The notes below the pieces were generated by a model. That model made no database searches. It was not told where the DNA came from and saw only the letters and a program-made list of their open reading frames with translations. Shown piece by piece: positions 1,122 to 55,486 of a stretch of 64,000 bases of DNA. The translations under genes were made by a program, and so were the position numbers. The stretch spans positions 62,001-126,000 of the forward strand of contig JAJEKV010000425.1 in assembly GCA_021234155.1 (NCBI GenBank). Reading direction: 5' to 3'. Every line of letters starts with the position of its first letter. Position 1 is the first letter of the stretch. Source of the stretch: Isoetes taiwanensis (Eukaryota > Streptophyta > Lycopodiopsida > Isoetales > Isoetaceae).

Positions 1122-2704
1122 TGTGACGTTCCAGCATAATATATGATCCGAATCGATATATTTATCAAGACGCCACACGTACATGCCACGGACGACATGT
1201 ACTTGCGAGACGTATAGGGTTGCACCTAGGGGGCAAGGGTTGCACCTAGGGCCCCGGGGCAACATTGAATGTTGTGCATGTTAAATAAACATACACAATT
1301 ATAAACCCCATGGACCCCATTGCCAAATGGCTAAATCCCATTTGGCCAATGTCTAACCTAACCCTAAGGGTTTCTATAAAAGGGCTTTCCCCTTAAAACC
1401 TTTCTTCTCTTTGCATTTTAGGGTTTTTCCTAGAGCTCCTTTCCTCTCTCGAATTCAGGGTTCTCTTGAGCCATTTCGGCCAAGTTAAGACCTCAATTCG
1501 CATTGCTCGGCTCTGAAAAGCCGTCTTTGCACAACAAGTCATCGAGTAGCAGCGATCTTGGCACAGGATCGAGGCATGGATGCATTTCGAGGCTCGGGAG
1601 CGGTGTCAAGGACTGTGTATCTAGTCATTCTCATAGTAAAGCCGCCTTTTTGGCTAGGCAATAAGCGGGTTTAGTATGTTAGATCAGCCCGTAGAAGTCT
1701 TATAGATCCCAAGATCATAAGCCCTAACTAAGGAACCTAACTCCGGATGTTTAGGTAGATAGATTAGATGATGTTCTTCATTTTGGCCTGTGATGATGTT
1801 GGTATTTCACTGCGGACCTCCATGTATTGGGAAGGGGGTAGAGGCCTAAAGCTTGTGTAGCCGGATGATCATAGATAGCCTATTAGCTCCCATTATTGCG
1901 GCTCAGGTAATGTGAGCCCGCTCGGGTTGTGGGTGGCGGGCTAGACCTGGCTGATACGGAGGAACTTGTCTCATCCTGACCGACCCCTCCGGGTAGTAAG
2001 GCCTATCGGGGGTCTATGCGGGCTAGGCTTAATGGCTTGTCGAGTGTGGGCAAGGCATGAGCTCGACACTCGTGGGGTGATGCATCACCTTCCATTGAGT
2101 TCAAGTCAATACCTGAGCAAAGGGCCCTCTAGCCGCTTTGTGATGGGCATGGATGCCTCTCGAGGGAGGTGACTCTCCTCCCGCCCCATCCGGCCGGGAG
2201 ATGTAACCCAATAGTAGTAGCCCCTCCGCTATTCACCCTGTGAGGCTACGGTCCAGTCCCAATACTTTTCAACCTACTCGCAGTGTGTGCGGGAGGGGCG
2301 GATGGAGTGGACTACCCTAAGCCATGTTCTTATGCCACCCAAATCCATTTGCCATGAATTGCCGCAATGACTCGGAGGCCCAAGCCGTGGGTCATACCCC
2401 CCTAAGTCGAGCCCCGGTAGGTTTTCCCTTTGCTGTTATTGTTCATGTTGATGTTGTTGGATCTCTGATGTTTATGAAGTGTTCACCCTTCGAGGTGATT
2501 GTATTGATATATTGTATCATGTGCTCATGTTTATTCACGCCTCCCATAGGAATTAATTCAAGGAGGGGTGAATGACACATCCACTCTTCCCTTGCTGGCT
2601 CATTCCACTAGGAGTGGTGTCAGGTGGATGTCCCCCGCCGGTATCGACAGGGGAATGCTCACCGATACGGTGTGTGCACCGTAGAGGAAGTAGGGGACGT
2701 CACA
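1122..2704 (+). mobile_element. left LTR of gypsy element A (1583 bp)
   Basis: The LTR starts TGTGACG and ends CGTCACA, giving 7 bp terminal inverted repeats. It matches 17713-19317 over its full length with numerous substitutions and small indels, so the insertion is not recent. It is followed at once by the initiator-Met primer site at 2706. A TATA box lies at 1375. The start was placed by the polypurine tract before it and by the identical boundary at the right LTR. Its termini and several internal blocks also resemble the solo LTR at 53856-55486. Confidence 0.92.
1375..1382 (+). promoter_or_regulatory. LTR promoter TATA box
   Basis: TATAAAAG about 250 bp into the left LTR; the same motif stands at 17967-17974 in the right LTR. 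Position and context fit the U3 promoter of a plant LTR retrotransposon. Confidence 0.65.
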
Positions 2705-2717: not shown

Positions 2718-2916
2718 ATGATCTTGGTAGACCAAGATCGAGCACTGATCATTTTTCCCATAGGAATAACAGTAGACTCAAGTCTTGGGAAATTAGCCAC
2801 CCAAGCAGGAACCTCGAAAATTGGAAATTTTTTTCCAATTTCTAGTGTAGTAATTAGGTTAATGCTAAGTTAGTAATAAGTTTAGCAAGAACCCAACCTA
2901 AATTGTCCAAAATCAG

Positions 2917-4555
2917 GTGACCCCTCACAGAGTGCGCCCAGACCACTTTTGACCATGCTCAAAAGTGCTCCCCGCGCACTATGTGAGTGGTGGACCCATG
3001 TTGACCTAGTTAGATGCATAATTTAGTTAATCTAACAGTGCACTTCAGCTTATTACTTAGATTCTAGTTAGTTTTGCATGTTAAAACACTAAGAAAACCC
3101 TTGTAAATTGAAAATTGGACCCAAAAAGAGGTGACCCCTCACAGAGTGCGCCCAGACCACTTTTGACCGTGCTCAAAAGTGCTCCCCGCGCACTGTGTGA
3201 GTGGTCGGCTATTAATCTATGTCTAGACTTGTCCAAACGTAGAAACTAAGGGCACAGTTCGCCTCAAGTCTAAGAAATAAGCAGGATTCGGCCTTCATAC
3301 CAACTTTTTAGAATCATCTAGGACCTAAACAGGTGGTGACCACTCACAGAGTGCGCCCAGACCACTTTTGACCATGCTCAAAAGTGCTCCCCGCGCACTG
3401 TGTGAGGGGTCAAAACTTTGAACCCTTCTTTGACCCTCATAAGTTGAGCTATACAGTATACAGCTCCAAATTGCCTGAAATTTGTTGCATTGGGACCGTT
3501 AAAAGTCTAGAATCCATTTATGATCTCAAATTAGGTTTAAAGTATTATATTCCACCTCAAAATGATCAAAATTGCTCAAACCCTAAACTCTGTCTTCCAA
3601 ACTAGGGTTTGTTTAGAAATAGAAGCAATAGCTTTTAGGGTACAAGGCTAGAGCCACAGAAGAGCAAAGGGCATGACTTTTTGAAGACATTGAAGACCCA
3701 GGCGACGTACTAACAACAGAAGGGAGGAGAGTGAAAAGGTAGACCCAAGAGAGGAAGCACTATGGCAAACACCTCTACAACGAGGCGAGAAGTACAGGGC
3801 ACAACTGGCCTATCAACAATCTTCATCAAATGGAAGACATACGTTAATCATCTGCATGAAGAACCTTCTCGACTATCAAGCACTCAGTTGCAACACCATG
3901 AGCTCACAGCAGAAAGAAAATTGCTAGTTTATTGTAAATACACAACTTTTTGTAAATACAAATTTATGTTTTGATCATGTTAACGTATAAAACTACAAGT
4001 AATTAGGTTGTATTAATGTTATATGCATTTGGAATTACCAAAATTGGAGCAAAAGTCAGTGTTTTTTGGCCCCACCCCTCACAGAGTGCTTCGGACCAAT
4101 TTTGCCTGTGCTCAATTGCTCCTCATTAATGCTGTGTGTGAGTGGTCGACCACTGATCTTTGCCAATACTTGGCCAAATGTAGAAAGTAAGGGCATAATC
4201 CAACCAAACTCATTCAGATAAGTAGGATTTGACCCTTAGATTGTAGAAATTGGCCAATCCAAACTCAAATGGAGCCCCACCCCTCCTGAGTCGCTTGAAG
4301 ACAATTTTGACCCGGGCTCAAAAGTGCTCCCCGCCAAGACCGTGTGGTCGAAAGAATCGATCTAGGCCAAAACTTGTCCAAATGAAGCAAGTAAGGACAC
4401 AATCCCACCTATCTCGACGAGATATGCAGGATTCTATCCTTAGTTTGCATGTTTGCCATCATCTTTGACCCAAATAAGGCCCCACCCCTCACAGAGTGCG
4501 CCCAGACCACTTTTGCCCATACTCAAAAGTGCTCCTCGTGCACTGTGTGAGTGGT
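2917..4555 (+). repeat. array of six long-hairpin repeats in the element leader
   Basis: Six copies of a module of about 75 bp start near 2917, 3131, 3336, 4071, 4275 and 4481. In good copies the outer arms CTCACAGAGTGCGC and GCGCACTGTGTGAG pair, as do the inner arms ACTTTTGA and TCAAAAGT around CCATGC, so each module can fold into a two-step hairpin; in copy 3 the outer stem approaches 20 bp. Spacing is 204-214 bp within triplets. The three-copy block recurs about 1145 bp downstream (2917/4071, 3131/4275, 3336/4481), and the spacers match in the same order. Copies 4 and 5 are the most eroded. A role in RNA packaging, dimerisation, small-RNA production or transcription control is only inference. 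Confidence 0.88.
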
Positions 4556-4729
4556 CACACTAAAATTGTCCTAACTTGGCCTAACTTTCACCGAAATTAG
4601 ATGGAATTTGTTGCAATAGGACCCTTAGGATGCACTCCTTAGCATGATTAGCCTGTCTTTTGCATAGCAATATCTTAGAATCATAGGTTCTCCCAAACCC
4701 TAAAATTTTCCAAAAATTAGGGTTTTGCG

Positions 4730-5108: not shown

Positions 5109-7728
<2,620 letters not shown>

Positions 7729-7730
7729 CT

Positions 7731-10700
7731 GCAGTGTATCAAATCAAAAGAGATGGGACAATTGGAAGGCATGAAGAATGAAAGCAACATCCTCAACACT
7801 TGTCTCACAACATGATACAAGACTCGGAAGGATGGAGTTGGCACAACAATATCAATCCAAAGGCATCCTTTAGCCGCCAAGATGAAGAATTCAACGTGGA
7901 GGATGTTTGTCAACTAAAACCACCTTCAAACCTTTGGGAAGTAACATAGAAGATTTCAAGTGGTCAACCACGCCATCAAACCACCAAAGAATGAGAAGTC
8001 TTTAATGAAGAAAGTTAACCTCTACACCGAGGAGGAGCTCAGAGTCTCAAGCAACTCGAAATAACGTTACGATGCGAGCAAGATTGAGGAGCTACGATCA
8101 TATAGTCGAGTAGGATAGGCTTATGGATGATGACATCCATAATGAAATTGGAAGGCATTTCCAGATTTTCTCAGGAAGGGATTGCCCCAAGTTGAGCTAA
8201 GCATCAACGAGTGGGAAGGAAATGCATAGGAGTAACTAAAATTATACACGATTGTTAACAGATATCCAACATATTGAAACCACTTGGTGAGATTGATCAC
8301 CTCGCTAAGAAGGAATCATTACTAGGATAATTGTTGACCATGTATAAAGCTAGTACCTCCAAGGAATATAATCCAATCGAATGAAAAGAAGTAATCTAAC
8401 AAGTCCGGCCAACTTGTTATGATGACATCAATTCAATTGATAGGAATATTCCAAGAGAGTAAATAAGTAAGGAAGGGGGATCTCTAGAATATAAAATTGA
8501 ATAATACATGAAAGGTACATCTAAAAATAAGAAGTATGTTAATCACATAATCTTTTGAGACAGAAGGAATTGTCATGATGATAAAAACTTGCAATTTAGA
8601 ATTGTTCTAAATAATTTAGTAACTCATCGCTTAGGGATAGATATGTTAAACATGATGGCTGCATCCATCATAAACGGTTAAATATGTTAGCCAAGGCTAG
8701 TAAATTAATGTGTTAGATAAGAAGCATATAACCTCTTAAGTTAAATAGAATAGATGAGTTGCTATGACAACATCAATCGAGGGGATAGGACACATTGAGG
8801 TGTAGGACCATTTTCTTATGAAGAAAGTGGGGGCTCAATCTTAGGACTGAACGTACCTATATCGTAGGGGTTGAATCGCCATCAAATTAGTCGACCCTTA
8901 GAATCGCACATGGAGCGTAAGATGGATAGATGCTTAATGTCTATAATCCTTTAGCATGCAAGACTGACGCGATAGCCAATTGCGCCAAAGTGGGGGAGCG
9001 AATTATTGGCAGCAATACAGCGGCCAAGTCGTCTCCAAATTAGTCGACACCGGTTCAATGGGGAGATGTATTCTAGCCTTAGTGGGTGCGACAACTAAGG
9101 TGGGGAGAGGCTTTGCATAATAGCTAGAATGTATGATGGGAAAAGCATTCACACCTAGGAATGAGCTAGTAGCTTAGCTCTTAATTAAATTATTCAGGGT
9201 TGTGAACCCCGTATAACTACATAAATTATCTTCCTATATATATGATTAGCAGGAAAAAAAAATCCGGCAAAAAAAAAAATCCAAAAATAAATATTTCAGG
9301 CAAGAAAAAATCCAAAAAAAAAATTACATTTGGAACCGGAAAAAAAAAAATTCTCGGAAGTTCTTCGCCTAGATTGTTTGGGCGGGCTAATTGGACATGG
9401 GGAAAATAAACAGGCCGAGGAAGGTGTGATTGTGAGAATCAAAGACAGAATTTGCAGATCAATCATTTGACAGATGGCTCTTGGAGATGAGAAAAACAAA
9501 GGATTGAGGGCCAAAAGCAATTAATTGAGCATAACAGGCAAAAAAACTCGGGTGATGGGCAAAAAATCTCAGGTCCGGTGATGGGCAAGAAATCTCAGGT
9601 GAAACTGAGGAATCCCAGTACGTTTTTCTCAAATTATTTCTTCTACAACATTTGTGCAAGCAGACGTCTCTAGTTTCAGATTCCTTGTGCAGAGGCTTAC
9701 AGGCAGATCATCTTCTTCAAATAAGAATAGAATTAACAAAAGGAGGGGATGTTTACCCTGTTAAATATCAACAACAAAAATTATAAGAAACCGCCTTGGA
9801 GATGCTTATGGGCATGATTTTCTCCCAAAACAGAGGTCTAATTGATTCTTTCAATGGGCTTGCATATGAATTAGTGAATAGAGGTTAGAGCTATCGGTTC
9901 ACCAACACTGCTGTGGAAAAAAAGGCTTGATTCAGGCATGTGTCATAGTCATTTGAGGTTTTGGGTCTGTAGATCATGTAGGCAGTGTTACGCCATATTT
10001 TGGCTGTAAAAACTAGGAAGAATGTTCAGAATCAAATGAAGATATGTGTGCATTTGAAAATGGTGGCCTTAGACCTGACACATGGATCTGGAAGCTCAAA
10101 TTAAAACAAGAAGCTAAGGTTTCTAGCCCTTTCTTTCGATTCTGCTTAAAATTGCAGAACCAAATCAAAGCTGACCTGTTTGGGGCCTGAGAATCAGAGC
10201 TCTACTCTAGAATCAATCAAACGTCTGTTTTGGGGCCGCTAATCGTGTGCATGGGTTCAGGTTCAGGCGCTTGAATTCAAGTTTTGATTCGAATTCCTTG
10301 GTATTTATATTTAATAAGCCGACAGTTGTATGTTTCTCAGGCAAACTCCTAGATCTTTCTAGGCAAGTTCGTAGGTTTCTAGGCAAATGGCACGGATTCC
10401 CCAGTCCAATCGATGGCTTTCTCAGTTGAAATGCATTCCATAACCTGGAACTCTGATGCTTGCTTCAACAACATGCAAGAATCCTTATTGTTTGAGTAAA
10501 CCTTTCATGGTTCCGTACTGCATTGGTTGTTCCGTCAAGAGTTCCCCGAAGTTTTTGAAAAATGTCTTTGCAGAGCCTTCTGATACTCAATTACTTGCTC
10601 ATCCTTTTGTTGCCCAGGATTTGCCTGTTTTCTGCTAAGCTTTCCCCTCGTTGGCTGGAGCAAAATTTCTACTCTGGAACTTGATTCCGGTTGAATTTGT

Positions 10701-16985: not shown

Positions 16986-17568
16986 ATTAAAAAGTCTACT
17001 TCCGTCCCACGGAAGTAGACAACCTTGAGAGATAAGAGGTCATTCAGGTATGCATTGATAGGAAAGCACCTTTGGTCAATGCCTACTACGGGGAGGATTC
17101 TATCTTTCTCGCCTAAATACGGGAAGGACACTATCCTCCACGCCAAAGGCAACTAAAGGTGTAAGCATGAGTTGGCATCTTAGGCATGATAGGGCGCTGT
17201 CTCCACGGCCACGATGGAAGAAACATAATCTTCCTATGCCGGGAGATATGCCTTGCATTCATGTAGTTGTAATTAATGGGTGGTTCCCTAACAACCAATA
17301 TCTATAATAATTAAATGTATGCTAGCGTAGTGTTGGACCTGCAGGACAATAGAAGAGTCGAGCAGGAGGAAGGTCACACTGCGAAGACTTGCAATACATA
17401 ATTTTGTCACGATGTGTTGTAAGGAAACGATGTGGAACCTTAAGTAGGAAATTTTGGAACTATGTTAATAATAATAGTGGTGTAAGCTATAAAATTTTGT
17501 GAATAATAATAGATGATAAAGCAAGAGGGTGAAAGACTCCCTTACCATAGTATGATATTAAACAAGGA
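16986..17568 (+). other. 3' untranslated internal part of element A
   Basis: Sequence between the pol stop and the pre-polypurine module. No ORF of interest; length is normal for a gypsy 3' UTR. Confidence 0.5.
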
Positions 17569-17712
17569 TGTGTTATGATAAATTAAAATGTTACCTTGAG
17601 GTAATTATATTGTAAAATTGTATATATATCAAATGTGATTGCAGGATATGCAGGTTTCCAAGGTGGGGAGAGACGTGATGCTGAGGACAACATCAAGTCA
17701 AGGTGGGGAGAA
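17569..17712 (+). other. 3' internal module and polypurine tract of element A
   Basis: Ends with AGGTGGGGAGAA (17701-17712), the plus-strand primer tract directly before the LTR start TGTGACG. A second purine block, AAGGTGGGGAGAG, lies about 45 bp upstream (near 17660). Matches 978-1121 almost base for base. Confidence 0.82.
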
Positions 17713-19317
17713 TGTGACGTTCCAGCATAATATACGATCCGAATACGTATATTATACTGCCACGCCACACGTACATGCCACGGATGACATGTACTTGCGA
17801 GACGTATAGGGTTGCACCTAGGGGGCAAGGGTTGCACCTAGGGCCCCGGGGCAACATTGAATGTCGTGCATGTTAAATAAACATACACAATTATAAACCC
17901 CATGGACCCCATTGCCAAATGGCTAAATCCCATTTGGCTAATGTCTAACCCAATCCTAAGGGTTTCTATAAAAGGGCTTTCCCCTTAAACCCTAAACCTT
18001 TCTTCTCTTTGCATTTTAGGGTTTTTCCTAGAGCTCCTTTCCTCTCTCGAATTCAGGGTTCTCTTGAGCCATTTCGGCCAAGTTAAGACCCCAATTCGCA
18101 TTGCTCGCTCTGAAAAGCCGTCTTTGCACAACAGATCATCCAAGTAGGCCAGTCTCAGCAGGATCGAGAGGCATGGATGCATTAGAGGCTCTGAGCGGAG
18201 TCAAGGACCAGGTATCTAGTCATTGTGCAGCAGAGCGCTTTGGCTAGGCAATAAGCAGGTTTAGTATGTTAGATCAGCCGTAGAAGTCTTATAGATCCCA
18301 AGATCATAAGCCCTAACTAAGGAACCTAACTCTGGATGTTTAGGTAGATAGATTAGATGATGTTCTTCATTTCAGTCTGTGATGATGTTGGTATTTCACT
18401 TTGTGACCTCCATGTATTAGGAAAGGGGGTAGAGGCCTAAAGCTTGTGTAGCAGATGATCATAGGTAGCCTACTAGCTCCCAATTATTGCGGCCCGTGCA
18501 CGTGGAGCCCGCCTTTGGTTGTAGGTGGCGGGGCTAGACCGGTTGATAAGGAGGAACTTGTCTCATCACGGACTGACCCCTCTGGTAGTAAGGCCTATCG
18601 GGGGTCTAGGCTAGGCTTAATGGCTTGTCACTGAGTGTGGGCAAAGCATGAGCTCGACACTCGTGGGGTGATGCGTCACCTTCCATTGAGTTCAAGTCGA
18701 ATACGGGCAGTGGCCCTCTACCGGGTGGATGGGCATGGATGCCTCTCGGAGGGGAGGTGACTCTCCTCCCGCCTCATTGGGGCTGGGGAGATATAATCCG
18801 GTAGTAGTAGCCCCCTCCGGCTATTCACCCGGGAGCTACCGCCCAAATCCCAATACTTTTTCAACCTACTCGCAAAGTGTGTACGGGAGGAGGGGCGGAT
18901 GGAGTGGACTACCCTAAGCCATACCAGATGCCGGTAAATCCATTTGCCATGAATTCTCTGCGCAATGACCGGAGGCCCAAGCCGTCGATCCCATACCCCC
19001 TTGAGTCAGAGCCCTGGGTAAGGTTTTCCCTTTGCTATTATTGTTTATGTTGATGTTGTTGTATCTCTGATGTTTATGAAGTGTTCACCCTTCGAGGTGA
19101 TTGTATTGATATATTGTATCATGTGCTCATGTTTATTCACGCTTCCGCAGATAGGTCGACTCGAAGGGAGACGGGTGAATGACACATCCACTCTTCCCTT
19201 GCTGGCTCATTCCACTGGGAGTGGTGTCAGGTGGATGGCCCTGCCCGGTTTCAGACAGGGGATGCTCCCATAACCGATACAGATGTGTGCACCGTAGAGG
19301 AAGTAGGGGACGTCACA
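17713..19317 (+). mobile_element. right LTR of gypsy element A (1605 bp)
   Basis: TGTGACG...CGTCACA, homologous to 1122-2704 throughout, TATA box at 17967-17974. Differences from the left LTR include many 1-4 bp indels concentrated in GC-rich parts (about 18480-18960). The sequence after 19317 (CAATG...) does not repeat the bases before either LTR, so no target duplication supports a simple single insertion. Confidence 0.92.
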
Positions 19318-19364: not shown

Positions 19365-19996
19365 TCAGCTAACACTTTTTTTTGTTGGAGCATTCAATAA
19401 GCCGAAAGGCATAACTATAAATTCATAGTGTCTATACCGCGTTCTAAAGGCGATCTTAAGAATATCTTCTTCCTTTATTCTTATTTGATGGTACCATGAT
19501 CTCAAGTCTATCTTAGAAAAGACGTTTGCCCCTTGGAGTTGATCCATCAGGTCATCTGCCCTAGGCAAGGCATATTTGTTCTTTACCATCTGCTTGTTCA
19601 ATTGACGGTAGCCTATACACATTCTTAGACTTCTATCCTTCTTCTTCACAAAGAGGATGGGTGCCCGAAGTGTGATATGCTTGCCCTGATGAATCCGAGC
19701 TCAAGCAATTCTTGTAATTGCTTCTTGAGTTCAACTAGCTCTGGGGCACTCATCCTATAGGGGGGCTTGCTGGTAGGCTTCGCATCTAGTGCTAGTGTGA
19801 TTTCACACTTCACACCCCTATAGGATGGTAACTCACAGATTTCATCCGGAAATACATCATGGAACTCCTTGATTGGCCTTGCTACTAGTCTGGGCAGCTG
19901 ATTCAAGCTTGGCTCCCTTTGCTTTTCCTGATCTGGCTCAATACTCTTGACTCTAGATCCCCCGCTTAAGACTTGACTTAATGACTCCAAGGACAC
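19365..19996 (-). pseudogene. Ty3/gypsy reverse transcriptase fragment
   Basis: Two overlapping minus-strand frames (19996-19646 and 19649-19365) together give the start of a chromoviral [46 protein letters not shown], then [51 protein letters not shown], and [13 protein letters not shown]. The first RT aspartate (SKIDLRS) is present; the YxDD block, RNase H and integrase are missing because the fragment ends at 19365, 48 bp from the LTR of element A. A one-base frame change at 19646-19649 breaks it. It is opposite in orientation to element A and belongs to a different copy. Confidence 0.92.
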
Positions 19997-20041
19997 CCAC
20001 TTACCTCCTCTTGGAGGAAGGTTGACTTCCCAGGGTAAGAC

Positions 20042-20203
20042 TTACTGGTCATACTGGCATACAATGTCTGTATAATAGGATGTTCTAGTCAGGGTTGCGT
20101 GGAGGTCAAAAAGATGGTCTCAGACATGGAAGGCCTCCTCTGCTGTGAATTCATGGATGTAGTTGGCACTGTTGTACCATTCAACAAAGTTTGTGGGCGC
20201 CAT
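20042..20203 (-). pseudogene. gag-position ORF start homologous to 4848-5108
   Basis: ATG at 20203-20201 opens MAPTNFVEWYNSANYIHEFT and runs 27 codons to a TGA, then continues in frame (DHLFDLHATLTRTSYYTD) to TAA at 20042. It aligns with the plus-strand ORF start at 4848 over about 50 residues. It stands 110 bp after a TATA box and after two hairpin modules, and upstream of the gypsy RT fragment on the same strand, which fits a Gag start. About 45 bp separate it from the protease/RT-side frame, so most of Gag is deleted. Confidence 0.55.
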
Positions 20204-20313: not shown

Positions 20314-20509
20314 GACTAAGGCTGCCTAGGTTCTCGTGCCCACGACTTCTTTTTCGAGAGACCTATGTTCTAAGGCTATAGATCTCCAAACTAGGTAACA
20401 TGAAGTGCAAATCTAAGCAAAACAAATCAAGAAACATTATAGGGCAGTTTACTAACTAAATTTTGGACAAATTTTGTCAAACATACTCGATAAGGGTTAT
20501 TCCACACGA

Positions 20510-20755
20510 AATGTGTCTGCATTCGTGATGCAGAAGCCATTGGCGCGATGTGACCCGAGTGGGTCATTTTTGGCAAACCTTAACATTTTCAGGAGCTATA
20601 AGATACTAAAATGCATGTTTGGATAAATTCTAGACTATTTTATGTTAAAGTAACATGTAAAAGTGCAAATATGGGTGACTCGAGTTAGATCGCGTGAAAT
20701 GCGTCTGCATTCGCGATGCAGAGCCCATTGGCGCGGTGTGATCCGAGTGGGCCAT
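20510..20755. repeat. two hairpin modules, about 190 bp apart
   Basis: Each module has a first hairpin TCTGCAT-5 nt-ATGCAGA (20516-20534 and 20704-20722), a conserved linker CCATTGGCGCG, and a second hairpin TGACCC-GAGT-GGGTCA (20551-20566; decayed at 20739-20754). A third copy lies at 30940-31000 beside the histone-like ORF. Confidence 0.85.
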
Positions 20756-21163
20756 TTTTTGCTCATTTTTTATATTTTTAACAAATTTAAAATGCTACAC
20801 TCTAAATCTTAACAAATTCTAAGCATTTTAATCATTAGGGAGAGTATTAAAAAAAGGCCCTTCTTAAGGATGCCAACGTGGCAATGGAAAAAAAAAGAAC
20901 GGGCTGCCCGACGAAATAGGGTTTCTACCCCATTTTTGTTTTTACTTCACAAGCAGACAAACTGAAGAGATCTGGAGATCGATTTGTAGACTATACGCTC
21001 GATGAGAAGAATGTTCAAGAAGAAGCCATCGTATCTAGGTCCAGGTATACAACGCTGTCTCTGCCACGTTTTTTCAAATTCAAATATCAAAATGTTTTCG
21101 CGCTTCCGCATTGACTTAAAAATGGGATTCTTTGCATTCAATTTCGAAATGGATGTCTTGGAA

Positions 21164-22429: not shown

Positions 22430-23143
22430 TAAACACTTACAGACAGATGGATGCCCTTTGAAGCACAAAAGGACTCAGCTTACGCTGTTGCCACATTGGG
22501 TGGCATTCTACTTGGTTCACTCACTGCAGGTACTATTTTTGTATGGTCCAGTATCCTTTGAAGTGACTTTGCAGTAAAATTGCTCACTCCTATATTACGA
22601 ATTTTGCCAACATCTTTAAGCTTCTCCATAGCTTGCCATGTCCCTTTTATGTCCAACTCCTCATACTCATGTTGTCCAAAAGTTCCCTTTATACGAAGAG
22701 GCCAATGTATCCGAGGAAGAAGAAGCCAACATTAGAAATGGTACGGATGCAATTTATCGTGATTTGGAATGCATACAAGATAGAGATCAAGGTAGTCTAA
22801 TTGCAAGTCCTGTAAAGTTTGATCCAGTGCTTTAGGCACATCTTCGAGTGCATGATCTGTAAACCTGAATGATTTACCAATATAAAGTAGGAACACTAAG
22901 TTTGCCATGTGCTGGCATCAACATAAGAATTGCAAGAAAATGACATTACCAGAGTTTTGAAGTGATCCAGATATCTTCTCGTTTGACTGTCCCATTCTGC
23001 ATGAGGTCTTGCAAAACAAATCCAATCTGACAGATGGCAGCACATGTCGATATCAACAGGGTGATCAAAAAGACTGCCAAACAGTTTTTGTCTTTGCATT
23101 CAAGAGTGCCAAATTTCCAATCATCCATTAACAGCTTCTGCAC
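22430..23143 (-). pseudogene. aldo-keto reductase (AKR4C-like), intron-containing, broken
   Basis: NADPH-dependent carbonyl reductases of this family act in the cytosol or chloroplast on aldehydes. Minus-strand exons can be read: one ending QDLMQNGTVKREDIWITSKL (donor GTAATG at 22949), an exon 22864-22777 with [17 protein letters not shown] and [10 protein letters not shown] (acceptor TTCAG, donor GTATGC), and a third from about 22710 with HWPLRIKG, TWQAMEKLKDVGKIRNIGVS and, after a frameshift, QVECHPMWQQRKLSPF. These blocks include the family's DLYLIHWP, GVSNF and NQVECHP motifs. The first exon shows the expected position of the catalytic-tyrosine segment only in corrupted form, and the exon 3 acceptor lacks AG. 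Retained introns show it is not a processed copy. N-terminus and C-terminal third are not seen. Confidence 0.85.
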
Positions 23144-28606: not shown

Positions 28607-29462
28607 TCATGGATAGAGATAGTTTTGGAGGCATACAATCTTTTGCTTTGATTTCATCCTCTCTTCTTCGACCTTCTCTCCATTAATGAAGAACTTGAAG
28701 TAATTTAATGCCATTTCTGCTCTAAAAGCCAAGGATATCAAATAAAGTCCATTCTTTCCACAACCATATCTTTTTAGAAACTGACCATTCTTATGGAAAG
28801 GAATTCTCAAAATTTCAGAATGACTCCCATCGTCGTCATCTTATTCAAATGGAATCCAACTCCACTTGCAATCAGTAAGCACATGCCTATATCTCCTATA
28901 TTTAAAAGTTGTATATAAAATTTGCCTTCTAAAGGCAGTATTTGAAATGTACGGTCTTGATCTTTATCCACGTGATTCAACATCTTCAGCTCTCCTTTAT
29001 CATGAACACGAATCTCCCATCCTGTAAACAACATGGATTCTAGAAAATCCTCAGTAGCATCTTTGATAGTAAACATTTTCATTGTCTTCTTAACCGTTGC
29101 GCAACTTTTGAACTTTGAAATAAAGAAATTGATGGGTAAAAATAGCTTGGTTGTACCACATACACTTCCACGTTCCTTCAAAGCATTCTGAAATTTTGCC
29201 ATCAATTTTTTCCTTGCCAGCAGCAAAGACATACTATCAATCGGGCCTGGATCCATGTCAGCTACTACAGGCAAAGGGATTTCTTCCATTCGTTTGGACT
29301 TTGGCCGATAAAGGAACTTATGAAACCATATCCATAGATCACGAAGTTGAATAGGCATCTCATTCGCGAATAAGATGGATCCAACATCAACGTGAAAAGC
29401 ATGGAAAATACTAGTTATACTATCTGGTGAAACAATATCTTCTTCTTCAGATAAACATAACC
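28607..29462 (-). CDS. 3' exon of unrecognised multi-exon gene
   Basis: After an acceptor (CCATGTAG) near 29463 the minus strand is open from GLCLSEEEDIVSPDSITSI through MPIQLRDLWIWFHKFLYRPK, ARKKLMAKFQNALKERGS and FLESMLFTGWEIRVHDKGEL to a stop at 28807, with a second frame (IPFHKNGQFLKRYGCGKN, ending FINGEKVEEERMK...) from 28810 to 28607. The paralogue at 37.8-38.6 kb on the plus strand shares the exon boundaries and the blocks LCxSxxExxVSxxSIxSxFHxF, LLAxxKL, ALKExxxxCG and FxGWxxRxHD. I cannot name a domain. The frame is nearly intact except for the 28807 break, so this is the better-preserved copy. Confidence 0.6.
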
Positions 29463-30393: not shown

Positions 30394-30493
30394 AAAACAA
30401 TCATATAATAATTGAATTATTATATGATTGTTTTGCTATCTTCTATTTCTTAGAATTTCAGCCTGAAATTCTAAGAAATAGAAGATAGCAAAA
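30394..30493. repeat. two adjoining perfect palindromes
   Basis: 30394-30413 and 30415-30434 are exact reverse complements around one base (20 bp arms). 30431-30461 and 30463-30493 are exact reverse complements around one base (31 bp arms). The two palindromes overlap by four T residues. Odd-length palindromes with a single central base are typical of replication-fork template switching or of an assembly artefact. Confidence 0.97.
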
Positions 30494-30939
30494 CACACAC
30501 CGGAAGTTCAAGCAATTTGAAAAAGGGGAGATCTCCCTTATTCAGCCAAAAAAGTCCTGCCCGAAACCATCATGGATTGCCAAAGGCATAATTGTATAGA
30601 CTAGTTACGGTGGCAGCCAGGAGTTTTCGGGAGTTTCATCCACGAAATGGAGTTCATTGTGAGAAGCAAGAAACAAAATTGGCAAGAAGCAATGAATCGA
30701 GACAAATCTACAAAGGACAAGCTTCTACGGGCAGCAGCTACACGGCCAATATATTCTCTACACGTGTACATAAAAAATCGATTGAATCTAATCACCTCTA
30801 CATAAGGCGCATCCGATTGGCCCATGAGGTTTCCTATTGGCAACTTAGTTTGTACTTTTTTTTAAAATCCTCTCTAATGAACTTTTTTACAAAAATTGAA
30901 CAACTTGAGCCAAAAAACAAGGGACTCGAATTAGACCGG

Positions 30940-31000
30940 GCGGAACGCGTCTGCGTTCGCGTCGCAGAGGCCATTGGCGCGGTGTGACCCGAGTGGGTCA
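30940..31000. repeat. hairpin module beside the histone-like ORF
   Basis: TCTGCG-7 nt-CGCAGA (30950-30968), linker CCATTGGCGCGG, then TGACCC-GAGT-GGGTCA (30985-31000). This is the same module as at 20510-20755, where the stem carries A:T in place of the last G:C pair. It begins 155 bp beyond the stop of the H3-like frame on its 3' side. Confidence 0.85.
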
Positions 31001-31154
31001 ATTTTGACCTAAAAGTCAATTTTAAAGAAAAAATTTAAACTGACATTACTAATAAGAACATTTTAATTAATTAGGAAAGATTTTACACCAAATTGATTTA
31101 TACAAAAAGTACTTTTATATGTATAAAATTACCTTAGTACAAAATTAGAAGCTT

Positions 31155-32228
31155 CTAAGGCTTCTCCTTACGGATCCTCCTAGCCAAATGGAGATCCTTG
31201 GGAATCACTGTTACCCCCTTCGCATGAATGGCACACAAGTTGCCTTCCTCGAAGAGCTGTACCAGTTCTGCCTCTGCTGCCTCTTGCAAGGATTGGACCA
31301 TTAGGGTTGTAACCCTATAGTCGGTTTGGAAGTCCTGTATGATCTCCCGGAAGAGCCGTTCGAACAGCGTCTTCCGGATCAAGTGTCTAATCTCCCGAAA
31401 CACCCGGGTGTGCTTTGAGTTAGGTCCATGGTGAACATTCTTCGAAGGCTCTGGCCATGGTGGTGGCGGCTTCGTCTCATTGTTATACCAATCATTGTAC
31501 CTCTTCCACCTCCGGAGGTACTCTTGGTATGCCTTCTTCCTTCTCTCAAACTCGCGGTCCTGCTTTAGCATGAACTCACGCTCTCCCACCTTCTGCTTTT
31601 TCATCCTTTGGTGGCTTGGGTCACTTCGGTTCGGGTGGACGGTCGGGGTTGGATGTCTCCCCGACATCCCCTTCGAACTCTTCCTCCTTCTGTCCGCCTT
31701 CTTCTTCTTCTTCTTCAGCCTCCTCCTCTTCCTCCTCATTGGTTGAGTCCCGGCGAGGTTCTTTAATGTGCACTGTCCCTCTGGGCCGATCTTGGTCCCT
31801 TTGGACCTTTCTCTCTTCTCTAGTCCTCCTTCTCCTGCTCCCTCTTCCTTCTGGCCGCTCGATCTTCCGACCATTTTGCTACCTTCTCCTTCCCCTTCTT
31901 TTTGCTGGGGCCGACCTTTTCTTGTCGTTGCTCCTCCTATTGGTGGTCACCCCCTGCTGCTGCTCCTCCTCTTGGCTCGGCGAAAGCGTGGCGAGCTCGA
32001 CCATCTCGTCCTTCCTCTGGATAGCCCTCGACGAGCTGCTGGATGTCTGCTCATGTGAGGTGTGGAAGGTCTCGTCCGTGGAGCTGGACGAAACTTCCGC
32101 TCCTCCTCCTCCCTCCCGGGCTTGAGGTGCTCCGGTATTTTCTTGTCGCTACCTGCTGCCGCCTTCGCCATGGAAGGAGTCTGCCTTGGGCTCTTGAACT
32201 TCCTTGATGTGAATTTGGTTCTAGCCAT
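31155..32228 (-). pseudogene. histone H3-like protein with long inserted region, inside an LTR element
   Basis: The frame opens at 32228 in good context (AAGATATGGCT) with MARTKFTSRKFKSPRQTPSM, the start of a histone H3 tail: R2, T3, K4, T6, R8 and K9 are kept, S10 is Phe. It runs 93 codons to a TGA (31949-31947), then continues in the same frame to 31155. The C-terminus is an unmistakable H3 fold: [59 protein letters not shown]116 is Gly, and about eight residues are missing just before the LIRK block. Between tail and fold lie roughly 230 codons of very charged sequence (basic KKKK runs, then a Glu-rich run visible in another frame, then an amphipathic [18 protein letters not shown] segment), absent from canonical or centromeric H3. 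Small indels probably separate the parts. A TATA-like TATATATAG lies about 180 bp upstream. The gene sits 550 bp inside the minus-strand LTR at 32780-34277, in the direction of its transcription. It could be a captured host histone variant, an extra ORF of the element, or a host gene next to an LTR. Confidence 0.8.
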
Positions 32229-32779
32229 ATCTTACGTTTAAGAAAATGGATTAGCTTAAGCTGGAGATCAAGAAAAGAGGTTTAGGGTGAGTTAGGGAGA
32301 GTGGGACCCAAGAATAGTATTTAAAAAGGAAAGATGCTCTTAGGGCTAGGAATATTCTCTCACCATTAATAGCCCTATTAATCAGCCCCCCTATTAAATA
32401 TCTGTACTATATATACTTATCCTTTAAAATTCGAATTTCTTCTAGTGGTTTGATGTATTAATTATGGATTTGCGTCATTTTTCACCCGAGTCTCGGATTG
32501 GGATGATTCTTCGACCCATTTTGGGTGAAATTTGATGCTCATGCATAATTTCCACTTAAGTCTTACTAGAATGTTAATTTGATTCATCCTTTTTCCCGTG
32601 CATCTATAATTTAGCCCTAACTTTATGATCCTACTACTTAAGAGAAAAAGTTTCCCCCATTGTCGAGGTTCACTGCTGGAATTTCTATTCTATGCTCTAT
32701 TAGGTCGATTAGACTACTAAATCGAGTGTAGTCAAGTTTTGGCTCTTGGTCATTAAGAACATTGTTTCTTCGATACCAT
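32229..32779 (-). other. leader between LTR and H3-like ORF with primer-site-like sequence
   Basis: Immediately inside the LTR the minus strand reads TGGTATCGAAG (32779-32768 region), matching the first seven bases of the initiator-Met primer site TGGTATCAGAGC. Toward the ORF there is a TATATATAG motif (about 32404-32413) and a TTTTTAAATA motif near 32320 that could act as core promoter elements. No ORF. Confidence 0.5.
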
Positions 32780-34277
32780 TGTGATGCTCCTTACTAAATA
32801 TACGACTTTCTCAGACGCGGCCAGAGAAATCCCCCATCGGCACTCGGCCGCATGGGCCCTCCATCTATCCAGACTCCAAGATATCCCTAGATGCGGGAAG
32901 GGGATACCTGAGGTTGAGCCCTTCCCTATGGGCTCCTATAACAAAATGAAGCATAACATAACGTCAACATTAACAACAATAATACATCTAGCTACCTCAA
33001 GTGTAGCCATCCCATACATCCATAGATCCAACAAATCAACATGCCATAAAAACATGAGCTCCTACCTAGGGCCTCGCACTTCAAGGGAGGTAGGACCGAC
33101 GGTTGGGCTACAAGATAGAAGCGGCCCGAGATATAACAATGGCGGGCTGGCTATAGACCATGGCTAGGGTTGACTACTCCATCCGCCCTCCAAAGGCATG
33201 CCCGCAGACCGCTCCTCGACGGACTCCGCATGACTATAACCCTCGGCTCTGACACGGGTCTCGTGGTATCACCCATCAGAGACTACTCACGGTTCTTGAC
33301 TTCTCGGTCTAATGAGGTTGGAAGAGTTCCATCTCCCTTCCAAAAGGTCTAGTAGTTCCATAGGAAGGCTAGAGAATCGTAGCGACACCGCGATTCGTCC
33401 CCCCATCAACTCCCTAAAAACAAGACCCGTGCCAACACCTGCAACTCACGAGGATCAAGGCGACACCATTGATCCAAGAAGTGTTGGACCCATACCCGAC
33501 CCACCACGGGTGACCAACTATAGACCTAGCCACTATGGGTCCCTAGTAGCCACGCCGCCAAGGACCCCCATCCACTTTGCCACAAGCCTCGTTGGTCATA
33601 GCCCCCGTAGGCAAACATAGATCAACCAACATCATACATCAACATAATATGATCAATAATGAAGATACATTAATCAGTAATCACATGCATCTAACTTTGA
33701 TTTAGGGTTCATTGATTAGGGGTTCCAAATCTAGACCGGAGGGTTCTAGGAAGGCTCTACTCAAAGTAAGATAAGATACTAGCTCATGCGGAATCCTAGG
33801 TCCAGATGATCTACCTATAAAGCTACTATGAATACATTCCCTCTTAACTTCCTCCAACTCCCAGGGTCTCCCCCATGACTTGATGATGAGTCAGTGATTC
33901 CTCCTCCTTCCGATGGCCGCACTTGCCTTGAGGTCAGTGATCCGAACACGCTCAAACCAGAGTTCGGAAAGGAAGAATAGGTCACAAGGTAGGTGGAGCC
34001 AAAAAGTGGTCTAGGGTTAGGGTTAGGATACTTATATGTTAGGGTTCCATGTCACTGCCACATGGCTCCAATGAGGTGCTTCCATGTGGCGGGTGCCCAA
34101 TAGGTTGAGGCCATGTGGAAATGGCCTTAAGCCTAAGGTTGGCTAAGTTATGTAAATAACTTAGCTATGCTACCTTCTCCACTTACTATGGTGTACAAGG
34201 CTATAATGATAGGCTTGTATGGTGACGAGGCCTAGAAATATATGTATTTATGGCGTATATTTCTGGGAAACATCACA
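32780..34277 (-). mobile_element. LTR of a second gypsy-type family (minus orientation, 1498 bp)
   Basis: On the minus strand it starts TGTGATGTTTCCCAG at 34277 and ends GCATCACA at 32780. It matches the solo LTR at 53856-55486 from end to end (for example CACCATACAAGCC near the start, the CCACATGG blocks, and CTCCxxxCTAAATAT near the end). It shows an eroded primer site on its inner (left) side, so it is a 5' LTR whose interior extends to lower coordinates. Flanking pentamers ACCAT and CTAAT differ, as expected if the left side is internal sequence. No matching 3' LTR is present; the interior seems truncated between about 30.5 and 30.9 kb. The LTR abuts coding sequence at 34278. Confidence 0.85.
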
Positions 34278-53855: not shown

Positions 53856-55486
53856 TGTGACGTCCCAGGAGAATATACTATAAATATGATATTCCTCGTT
53901 ACCATACAAGTCTACCTAGGTAGCCTTGTATGCCTTAGAAAGTGGCAAGGGGTGCACATCTAAGTTAATTGTTTAACTTAGATAACCTTAGGATAAGGCC
54001 CATTTCCACATGGCCTTATCCTATTGGGCAACCGCCACACGGCTCATCTTAGTGGTGCCACGTGGCATCCCATGTGGACCCACACCTATATTGGCTCTAA
54101 TCCTAACCCTAGACCCTTTTCCCACCTAGCACTGAACTTCATTCACATGCCCGAAACCCCGCTTCGAGCATCGCTCGTCATAGCCTGAAGGCCTCGGGAG
54201 GCAGCTTCTCCCTCGGAAGGTGTGCATGATCGTTGAGGGAGCAAGCCTTCACCCACGCCAAGGAGCATGGAGACTTTGGGGATGGGGGGAAGCCGAGGAG
54301 GAGGTAGGTTGAGTAGAGTTCATGTTAGTACATCCGGAAGTAGCACGTGATGGGTTAGTATTTCGCGGTGTCTAGAGTAGAGCCACCCTAGAATTTTGTT
54401 GAACATCTTGAACCCTAATCAAGGAACCCTAACCTAGTTAGATATGTATGATTAGGTTAAGATGTTCTCATTATGATTATCATGATATGATGTTATGGGA
54501 TGTTGGTTGATCATGTTGCTCCTCTTGTATTGGGAAGGGGGGTAGAGACCTAGGGCCATATGTAGTATGCTCCTAGTGTAGATCATTTAGTTCCAATTAT
54601 ATGCGGCGGCATAGGAACCCACCGGGCTATGGAAGCTATGATGTGACTCAGACACTACCACAACAGGGGCTAGAGGCAAGATGGAGGGTGGATCCCCGCA
54701 GAGTGGGGGCTCGGGGATCCCATAGTGGGCTAGGCTTATGGTCTGGGCCACTTCGTGGGCCGGTGCATGGGTCCGACACCTCCGGGGCAATGGTGTCAGC
54801 CTCTGCCTCTCAAGAGTTGCAAGTGTCAGCTTGGCTCTTGTTTTGGGGGTTCACGGGTACTAATCGTGTGTGTCGCCACGATTCTCTAGCTGCCCGTGGA
54901 GCCTCTAGACCCCGGGAAGGGGAGATGCAACCCTTCCTACCTCGCCTGGGACCGAGGTGGAGATGCACCTCGAGTAGTCCCGGATGGGTGATGCCATGGG
55001 ACTCAGATCCGGAAGGTTAGAGTCATGCCACAGCTGATGATTAGCCCATCCAAAGTATGCAATGTGAGGGGCGGATGGAGTGGTCAACCCTAGCCATTGT
55101 CTTGATGCCCCCGCCATTGTTGTGACTCGGGTCCGCTTCTATCTTGAGGCCTATCTAGTCAGCCGACCACCTTATGTGTCTGAGCCACGGGTAGGAGCTC
55201 TCATGTTTTATGGCATATGATTACGTTCTTTGCATCTATGGATATGTGGTTGAGCCACCTTCGAGGTAGTATGTTATGTTGCATTGCTAGTTCTCGACGT
55301 ATTTATCGCTTCCCTCCGTTATAGGAGCCCATAGGGGGGCATAGAAGACACCTTCGGTCCCTCCCCCGCACTAAGGGTCACCCGTGAGTGCGCGGGTAGA
55401 CGAAGAATTTTGGCGGTTGTTGAGCCGGACGGGGATTTCCTGTCGAGTGTACGCACGGGTGTCAGATATTTAGGTGGAGTGTCACA
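53856..55486 (+). mobile_element. solo LTR (1631 bp) of the histone-bearing element family
   Basis: Starts TGTGACGTCCCAGG, ends GTGTCACA, flanked by the exact 5 bp target duplication CATAA (53851-53855 and 55487-55491). No internal domain follows, so it is the product of recombination between the two LTRs of a former complete copy. End-to-end similarity with the minus-strand LTR at 32780-34277 places it in the same family; termini and several blocks are shared with element A. It contains a perfect G-box GCCACGTGGC at 54057-54066. Open frames within it (for example 54601-55020) are not genes. Confidence 0.95.
54057..54066. promoter_or_regulatory. G-box in solo LTR
   Basis: GCCACGTGGC, the palindromic core bound by plant bZIP and bHLH factors, about 200 bp into the LTR. 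In the minus-strand relative the corresponding region reads CCACATGG-type sequence, so the site is not strictly conserved. Confidence 0.35.

Follow-up and report, generated by a model that had tools for sequence, protein, structure and literature searches.

Additional open reading frames (ORFs) of LTR retrotransposons have been reviewed (PMC7264820), and giant elements have been described as well (PMC6431247). For plant Ty3/gypsy elements, Neumann et al. sorted the proteins of extra ORFs into 314 groups, with known domains in 21.4% of all (PMC6317226). The Retrosat2/RIRE3/RIRE8 family of rice carries an ORF0 upstream of gag-pol, which according to the published account diverges faster than gag-pol, was not found outside grasses and has an unexplained role (PMC3485330). 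Retrosat-2 has been placed under the chromovirus lineage Tekay (PMC6317226). Among orchid Ty3/gypsy elements, the extra ORF codes for a 2-ODD m6A demethylase (PMC9289625), while the fungus Pyrenophora tritici-repentis has an H3-like gene, H3L, in a hAT DNA transposon, and this gene was amplified with the element (PMC3538342). Histone H3 in a mobile element is thus already known from the fungal hAT. Among the papers listed in the literature searches none reports an LTR element with H3, and a histone may stand among the extra-ORF domains in the supplementary list of Neumann et al.

The locus analyzed here lies in a 64-kb stretch of DNA (the window). Like Retrosat2, it appears to be a plant gypsy-type element with long LTRs in which an additional sense ORF is placed after the 5' LTR and before gag-pol, provided that the two parts described below belong to one element. 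In contrast to Retrosat2, for which the main text of PMC3485330 contains the word 'histone' 0 times, the present ORF encodes a homologue of H3 that has a long linker. The orchid elements likewise bear an extra ORF of host type; they captured and kept theirs, but the protein is a different one and a family of copies was demonstrated, whereas a single copy is at hand here. With the H3L-bearing hAT of P. tritici-repentis the locus shares an H3-like gene in a mobile element. However, the fungal element is a DNA transposon with terminal inverted repeats and a transposase, and the present one has an LTR, a primer site and a leader. No hAT domain was detected among 12 distinct window proteins submitted to Pfam, a small part of the window, and visual inspection of the 40 bp inside the 9-bp repeats that flank the H3 segment showed no inverted repeat.

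We interpret the H3-like frame as what is left of an additional ORF from the 5' internal part of an old Ty3/gypsy element, in which the LTR was followed by primer site, leader, H3 ORF, repeat array, gag and pol. The ORF would derive from a canonical host H3, would have diverged under constraint and would then have decayed. We assign this interpretation a probability of about 0.5. The features are listed in Table 1; a related copy on the plus strand is referred to as the sister element, and the LTR of the H3-bearing element and a further LTR of its group are termed LTR1 and LTR2.

Table 1. Annotated features of the H3-bearing element, its sister and related repeats, numbered from the first position of the window
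Feature	Position	Strand	Basis or remark
LTR1, 5' LTR of H3-bearing element	32780..34277	-	TGTGATG...CATCACA ends; LTR alignments
Primer-site-like TGGTATC	32772..32778	-	One base (A) past LTR1; sister counterpart TGGTATCAGAGC
Element leader, sister-homologous part	32607..32779	-	Aligned to sister leader from 2705 (+)
H3-like ORF start, MARTKFTSRK, H3-tail-like	32199..32228	-	ATG at 32228; frame shared with fold
Charged middle of ORF, frame disturbed	31617..32198	-	In-frame TGA; periodicity shifts between frames
Linker in frame with fold	31413..31616	-	Coding-like GC periodicity
H3 histone fold, alpha-N 7 residues short	31155..31412	-	Stop at 31155-31157
Repeat unit D4a, just behind H3 ORF	30923..31005	-	84% to D4b over 83 bp
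Repeat unit D4b, upstream of gag-like start	20677..20759	-	Matches D4a
Repeat unit D4c	20489..20571	-	Matches D4a/D4b
Gag-like N-terminus MAPTNFVEWYNSANYIHEF...	20045..20203	-	One stop inside; named by position and by-eye likeness to sister
Pol remnant, two frames	19368..20041	-	RT fragment 19368-19700; homology end at ~19385 by eye
Sister LTR	1122..2704	+	Followed by GTGGTATCAGAGC and related leader
LTR2, solo LTR of LTR1 group	53856..55486	+	Perfect 5-bp target duplication CATAA on both sides

On the minus strand, LTR1 begins with TGTGATGTTT and ends with GAGCATCACA, showing the TG...CA ends of an LTR. It agrees with LTR2 in 80.8% and with the sister LTR in 77.1% of ungapped columns. The flanks of LTR1 are unequal (ATTAG outside, ATGGT inside) without a target duplication against the inner flank; in this it differs from LTR2, and LTR1 is therefore not a solo LTR. 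The initial annotation had named LTR2 as a member of the LTR family. Its target duplication marks it as a solo LTR without an internal region that could be compared, and a second full element at that place was rejected. A second copy of LTR1, or a 3' LTR on the minus strand, was not found within the 64-kb window, so that the copy is either truncated or ends beyond it.

The same annotation had described the order of LTR, TGGTATC and a leader of some 550 bp, and this was borne out, with 551 bp measured from LTR1 to the ATG. Beyond TGGTATC the primer-site-like motif has diverged; the sister has TGGTATCAGAGC at the same place, and a primer site of this kind would pair with a tRNA-Met. The first 173 bp past LTR1 run in register with the sister leader. 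When the first 220 bp of each leader were compared, the score was 75 against a maximum of 48 in 100 shuffles. Over the whole leader the score of 75 equaled the shuffle maximum of 75 (100 shuffles; mean 54, SD 8), and at that length the match is not separated from shuffled sequence. A scan of 1566 windows on both strands placed the sister leader on top (75), followed by the best unrelated place at 48.

The ORF itself opens as an H3 tail and closes in an H3 fold, as had been noted from the sequence, and the ATG and the fold stand in one frame. Counted against a canonical H3 sequence, whose tail begins ARTKQTARKS, seven of the first nine tail residues are kept (A1, R2, T3, K4, T6, R8 and K9). Tail and fold are not joined directly as they are in canonical H3; a long linker lies between them. 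Codon 94 is a TGA, the one in-frame stop. GC periodicity moves between frames along the charged middle of the ORF, and frameshifts are therefore probable there: near the tail, frame 0 leads at 32140-32110 only, frame +2 is favored at ~32050-31930, frame +1 at ~31900-31840, frames 0 and +2 are tied at 31690, and frame 0 is favored from ~31750 to the stop. The ORF of this copy is thus decayed and its frame is not intact. Across linker and fold (31155-31616), GC content differs among codon positions with a spread of 0.31, a value matched by none of 10000 shuffles, and for the linker alone the periodicity was matched by 33 of 10000. Since the periodicity spans both, linker and fold look like a single coding unit.

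The fold matches the Pfam histone family (PF00125) at E 4.1e-20 and H3 chains in the PDB from E 4.4e-24, and judged by these matches its identity as an H3 fold is beyond chance. Relative to canonical H3, 49 of 75 fold residues are equal and 26 are changed. The residues C110, H113, K115, D123, L126 and I130, which we take to have roles in H4 pairing, are all kept, while R116 is changed to glycine (R116G). Both R116 and the alpha-N helix presumably have roles in tetramer and DNA contacts.

Protein-collection searches returned a few divergent H3-like proteins, namely 1 of 127 candidates with the linker-plus-fold query and 3 of 59 with the fold query, while none of 6 candidates passed with the linker-weighted query. 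None of these searches yielded a close relative, and they did not list the canonical H3s, for which the PDB search gave good matches, hence they were not exhaustive. The linker of this ORF is present in none of the divergent relatives aligned. Viral contigs gave no confirmed relative; one search returned a single stretch that matched the pattern and was not confirmed, and another returned 0. The changed fold residues tend to fall where H3-like proteins vary. Positions changed in one or more of four H3-like proteins from the database account for 20 of the 26 changed residues, compared with 23 of the 49 unchanged residues (Fisher p 0.011; for the counts, Mann-Whitney p 0.0065). When three CENH3 sequences were added, the proportions were 23 of 26 for changed and 32 of 49 for unchanged residues (p 0.026 by Fisher and 0.0005 by Mann-Whitney). 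Such clustering may be the mark of a once-constrained protein, and a divergent host ancestor would give the same.

A one-off capture is an alternative that we consider possible, though less probable than the interpretation above. By this account a host H3-like gene, perhaps with its long linker already in place, was transduced or retrocopied into this one leader, decayed there and never served the element. The window has a single H3-bearing copy, which is broken, and neither exact motifs nor DNA comparison revealed an H3 at the matching place of the sister. The segment without proven element homology (32606-31093, ~1.5 kb) has the size of a gene insert, and capture of host genes by a single or a few LTR-element copies is documented (PMC7264820). 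However, the 135 bp past the H3 stop have no A run of at least 5, and there is no significant flanking duplication; the 9-bp flanking repeat, considered as a target duplication, is at chance level (P 0.48). Moreover, a coding linker and a pattern of constraint need time as a protein, and the protein searches, within the limits given above, found no such host gene.

Element sequence flanks the H3 ORF on both sides and on one strand, with the sister-like leader upstream and the repeat unit D4a downstream, where D4 homology begins 62 bp past the H3 stop. The extended alignment of D4a (31092-30915) with the D4b region scored 150, compared to a maximum of 58 in 200 shuffles. Downstream of D4b and D4c on the minus strand are CTATAAAAGG, the gag-like start at 20203 and the pol remnant, whose RT fragment matches Pfam RVT_1 (9.7e-14) and Ty3 RT (1.5e-23). 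Between the H3 part and the gag/pol part lie some 10 kb of other sequence, from about 30.9 to about 20.9 kb. As D4 copies lie both behind H3 and before gag and RT, the simplest reading is that both parts belong to one element whose repeat array was split by the 10 kb, and it is through the repeat units that the RT assigns the H3-bearing element to Ty3/gypsy. A motif scan found no integrase in this copy, and no target duplication bounds the 10 kb, the longest shared word being 8 bp and AT-rich.

With the gag-like start and the gypsy RT following further D4 copies on the same strand, the H3 ORF is likely an extra ORF and not a substitute for gag. The initial annotation had put H3 in the place of gag. 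The position behind the 5' LTR and inside the element stands, with leader on one side and D4 on the other, but H3 does not appear to replace gag, because a gag-like start and RT follow. An extra ORF upstream of gag is the most likely arrangement and explains the observations better than gag replacement.

The D4 link also bears on a second alternative, by which the pieces are neighbors by chance: LTR1 and its leader would be a truncated element, the H3 ORF an unrelated host gene or pseudogene, and D4 a dispersed repeat. Unrelated matter does occur in the 10 kb between D4a and D4b, including a piece resembling an aldo/keto reductase exon (22522-22686, minus strand; PF00248, 1.4e-10), and the missing 3' LTR would fit as well. 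We nevertheless regard chance as improbable, considering that all parts share a single strand, that the LTR and the ATG are 551 bp apart and the stop and the repeat unit 62 bp, that the thresholds used revealed D4 copies nowhere else in the window than behind H3 and ahead of the gag-like start, and that the pre-gag region of the sister also has repeat arrays, though of other sequence. Some additional features were recorded in this part of the window. A second aldo/keto reductase piece (22771-22863) has E 0.038, below the family cut-off, a 183-codon ORF at 28807-29358 on the minus strand has no Pfam match, and two adjoining near-perfect palindromes of 41 bp (97.6%) and 67 bp (98.5%) occupy 30394-30495.

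Proteins of the CENH3/CENP-A type have a longer loop 1 between alpha-1 and alpha-2, and plant CENH3s start with MARTK, a start that would suit an element-encoded CENH3-type protein targeting centromeres. In the PDB alignment, loop 1 of the present fold shows no gap or insertion against H3, so the CENH3 loop insertion is absent and a CENH3 origin was rejected on this length. Thus, the earlier suggestion of a captured host H3 or CENH3 variant survives as descent from an H3 gene but not in its CENH3 form, and the source looks like canonical H3, with which the ORF shares the tail ARTK..T.RK, the 49 fold identities and the loop-1 length (PF00125; PDB 1kx3 class), while it is set apart by the long linker, the shortened alpha-N and the changes at R116 and 25 other fold residues. 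AlphaFold models were poor, with a mean pLDDT of 49.6 without an alignment and 62.7 with four relatives. Foldseek with a low-confidence model retrieved H3 chains from E 3.5e-4 at TM ~0.2, too weak to add support. A CENH3-type protein would fit the long, changed linker and the residence of CRM-clade gypsy elements in plant centromeres (PMC3059260), but is highly improbable in view of the canonical loop 1, of the best 60 of 174 PDB matches, which are named H3 or 'histone domain-containing' and none of them CENP-A, and of the Foldseek search, where the low-confidence model met CENP-A chains at E 0.09 or worse only.

Under the interpretation of an extra H3 ORF upstream of gag, a canonical host H3 gene would have been taken into the element, a long charged linker would have come between tail and fold, and alpha-N would have been shortened; the protein would have diverged under constraint before this copy decayed. 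The sequence shows position, homology and decay; a once-functional protein and a role in chromatin are what we infer beyond them. The element would have made an H3-like protein with an H4-pairing fold and a K4/K9 tail, which could have joined host H4 and entered host chromatin or the element's own DNA, its long linker being free to bind components of the element or other partners. With alpha-N shortened and R116 lost, tetramer and DNA contacts would be weaker, and so would the nucleosomes. As a net effect, the element might have been tethered to chromatin, or its silencing loosened, disguised or disturbed. More tentative, and in our estimation less likely than not, is the general proposal that a lineage of plant Ty3/gypsy elements encodes its own H3 variant upstream of gag, with the K4/K9 tail kept, a long linker and a short alpha-N, by which it enters or changes host chromatin.

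Plants silence retrotransposons through marks that are carried by histones. If the proposal is true, an H3 encoded by the LTR element itself would offer a direct molecular handle on the silencing conflict, and the upstream ORF of large gypsy elements, unexplained in its role in Retrosat2, would gain a content related to chromatin. If other copies share the H3 ORF, the locus would represent a mobile element that once produced a histone of its own.

The sister element gives a view of the same region in a related copy. Its 76-bp units, which are imperfect palindromes, flank a short upstream frame with its ATG at 3762; after this frame and the repeat units a TATA-like box comes next, and then a gag-like frame that starts at ~4848 and is broken. 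A repeat array and an extra frame before gag may therefore be a trait of the family, although exact motifs and DNA comparison revealed no H3 in the sister. The regions upstream of the two gags are alike (score 44, reached by 0 of 200 shuffles; shuffle maximum 39). The DNA alignment of gag to gag between the H3-bearing element and the sister is not significant (35 of 200 shuffles), so a common gag of the two rests on a translated resemblance seen by eye.

Several other candidate similarities were rejected. The H3 linker was compared with the upstream frame of the sister, where sister windows scored 54 against 63 for the best place elsewhere; an earlier score of 60 between linker and sister (reached by 0 of 50 shuffles) was put down to purine-rich composition. 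Shuffles reached the scores of the downstream H3 flank against the sister in 7 of 200 cases, and this flank was not among the best places in the window scan, in which neither the linker nor the flanks of H3 matched the sister more strongly than they matched other parts of the window. The corresponding counts were 38 of 200 for the upstream H3 flank and 47 of 200 for the 5' coding part, each against the sister, 52 of 200 for D4-like units upstream of H3, and 126 and 56 of 200 for a promoter block common to the H3 and gag starts.

Single-stranded DNA folding was computed for seven stretches. Long hairpins were obtained for three sister units (z -7.6, -7.5 and -4.5), three D4 units fold more weakly (z -1.7, -2.0 and -3.1), and a candidate stretch upstream of H3 does not stand out (z -1.4). 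The hairpin-forming 76-bp units of the sister occupy 2894-3412 and 4068-4558, flanking the short pre-gag frame. A second sister LTR at 17713-19317 is 94.3% alike to the first in ungapped columns. The two are preceded by the same stretch (at 966-1121 and 17559-17712) with a PPT-like AGGTGGGGA, as would be expected of LTR-internal-LTR units in tandem more than of a simple insertion. Finally, a long CT/GA microsatellite at 7489-7913 yields LSLSLS and RERERE open frames on its two strands.
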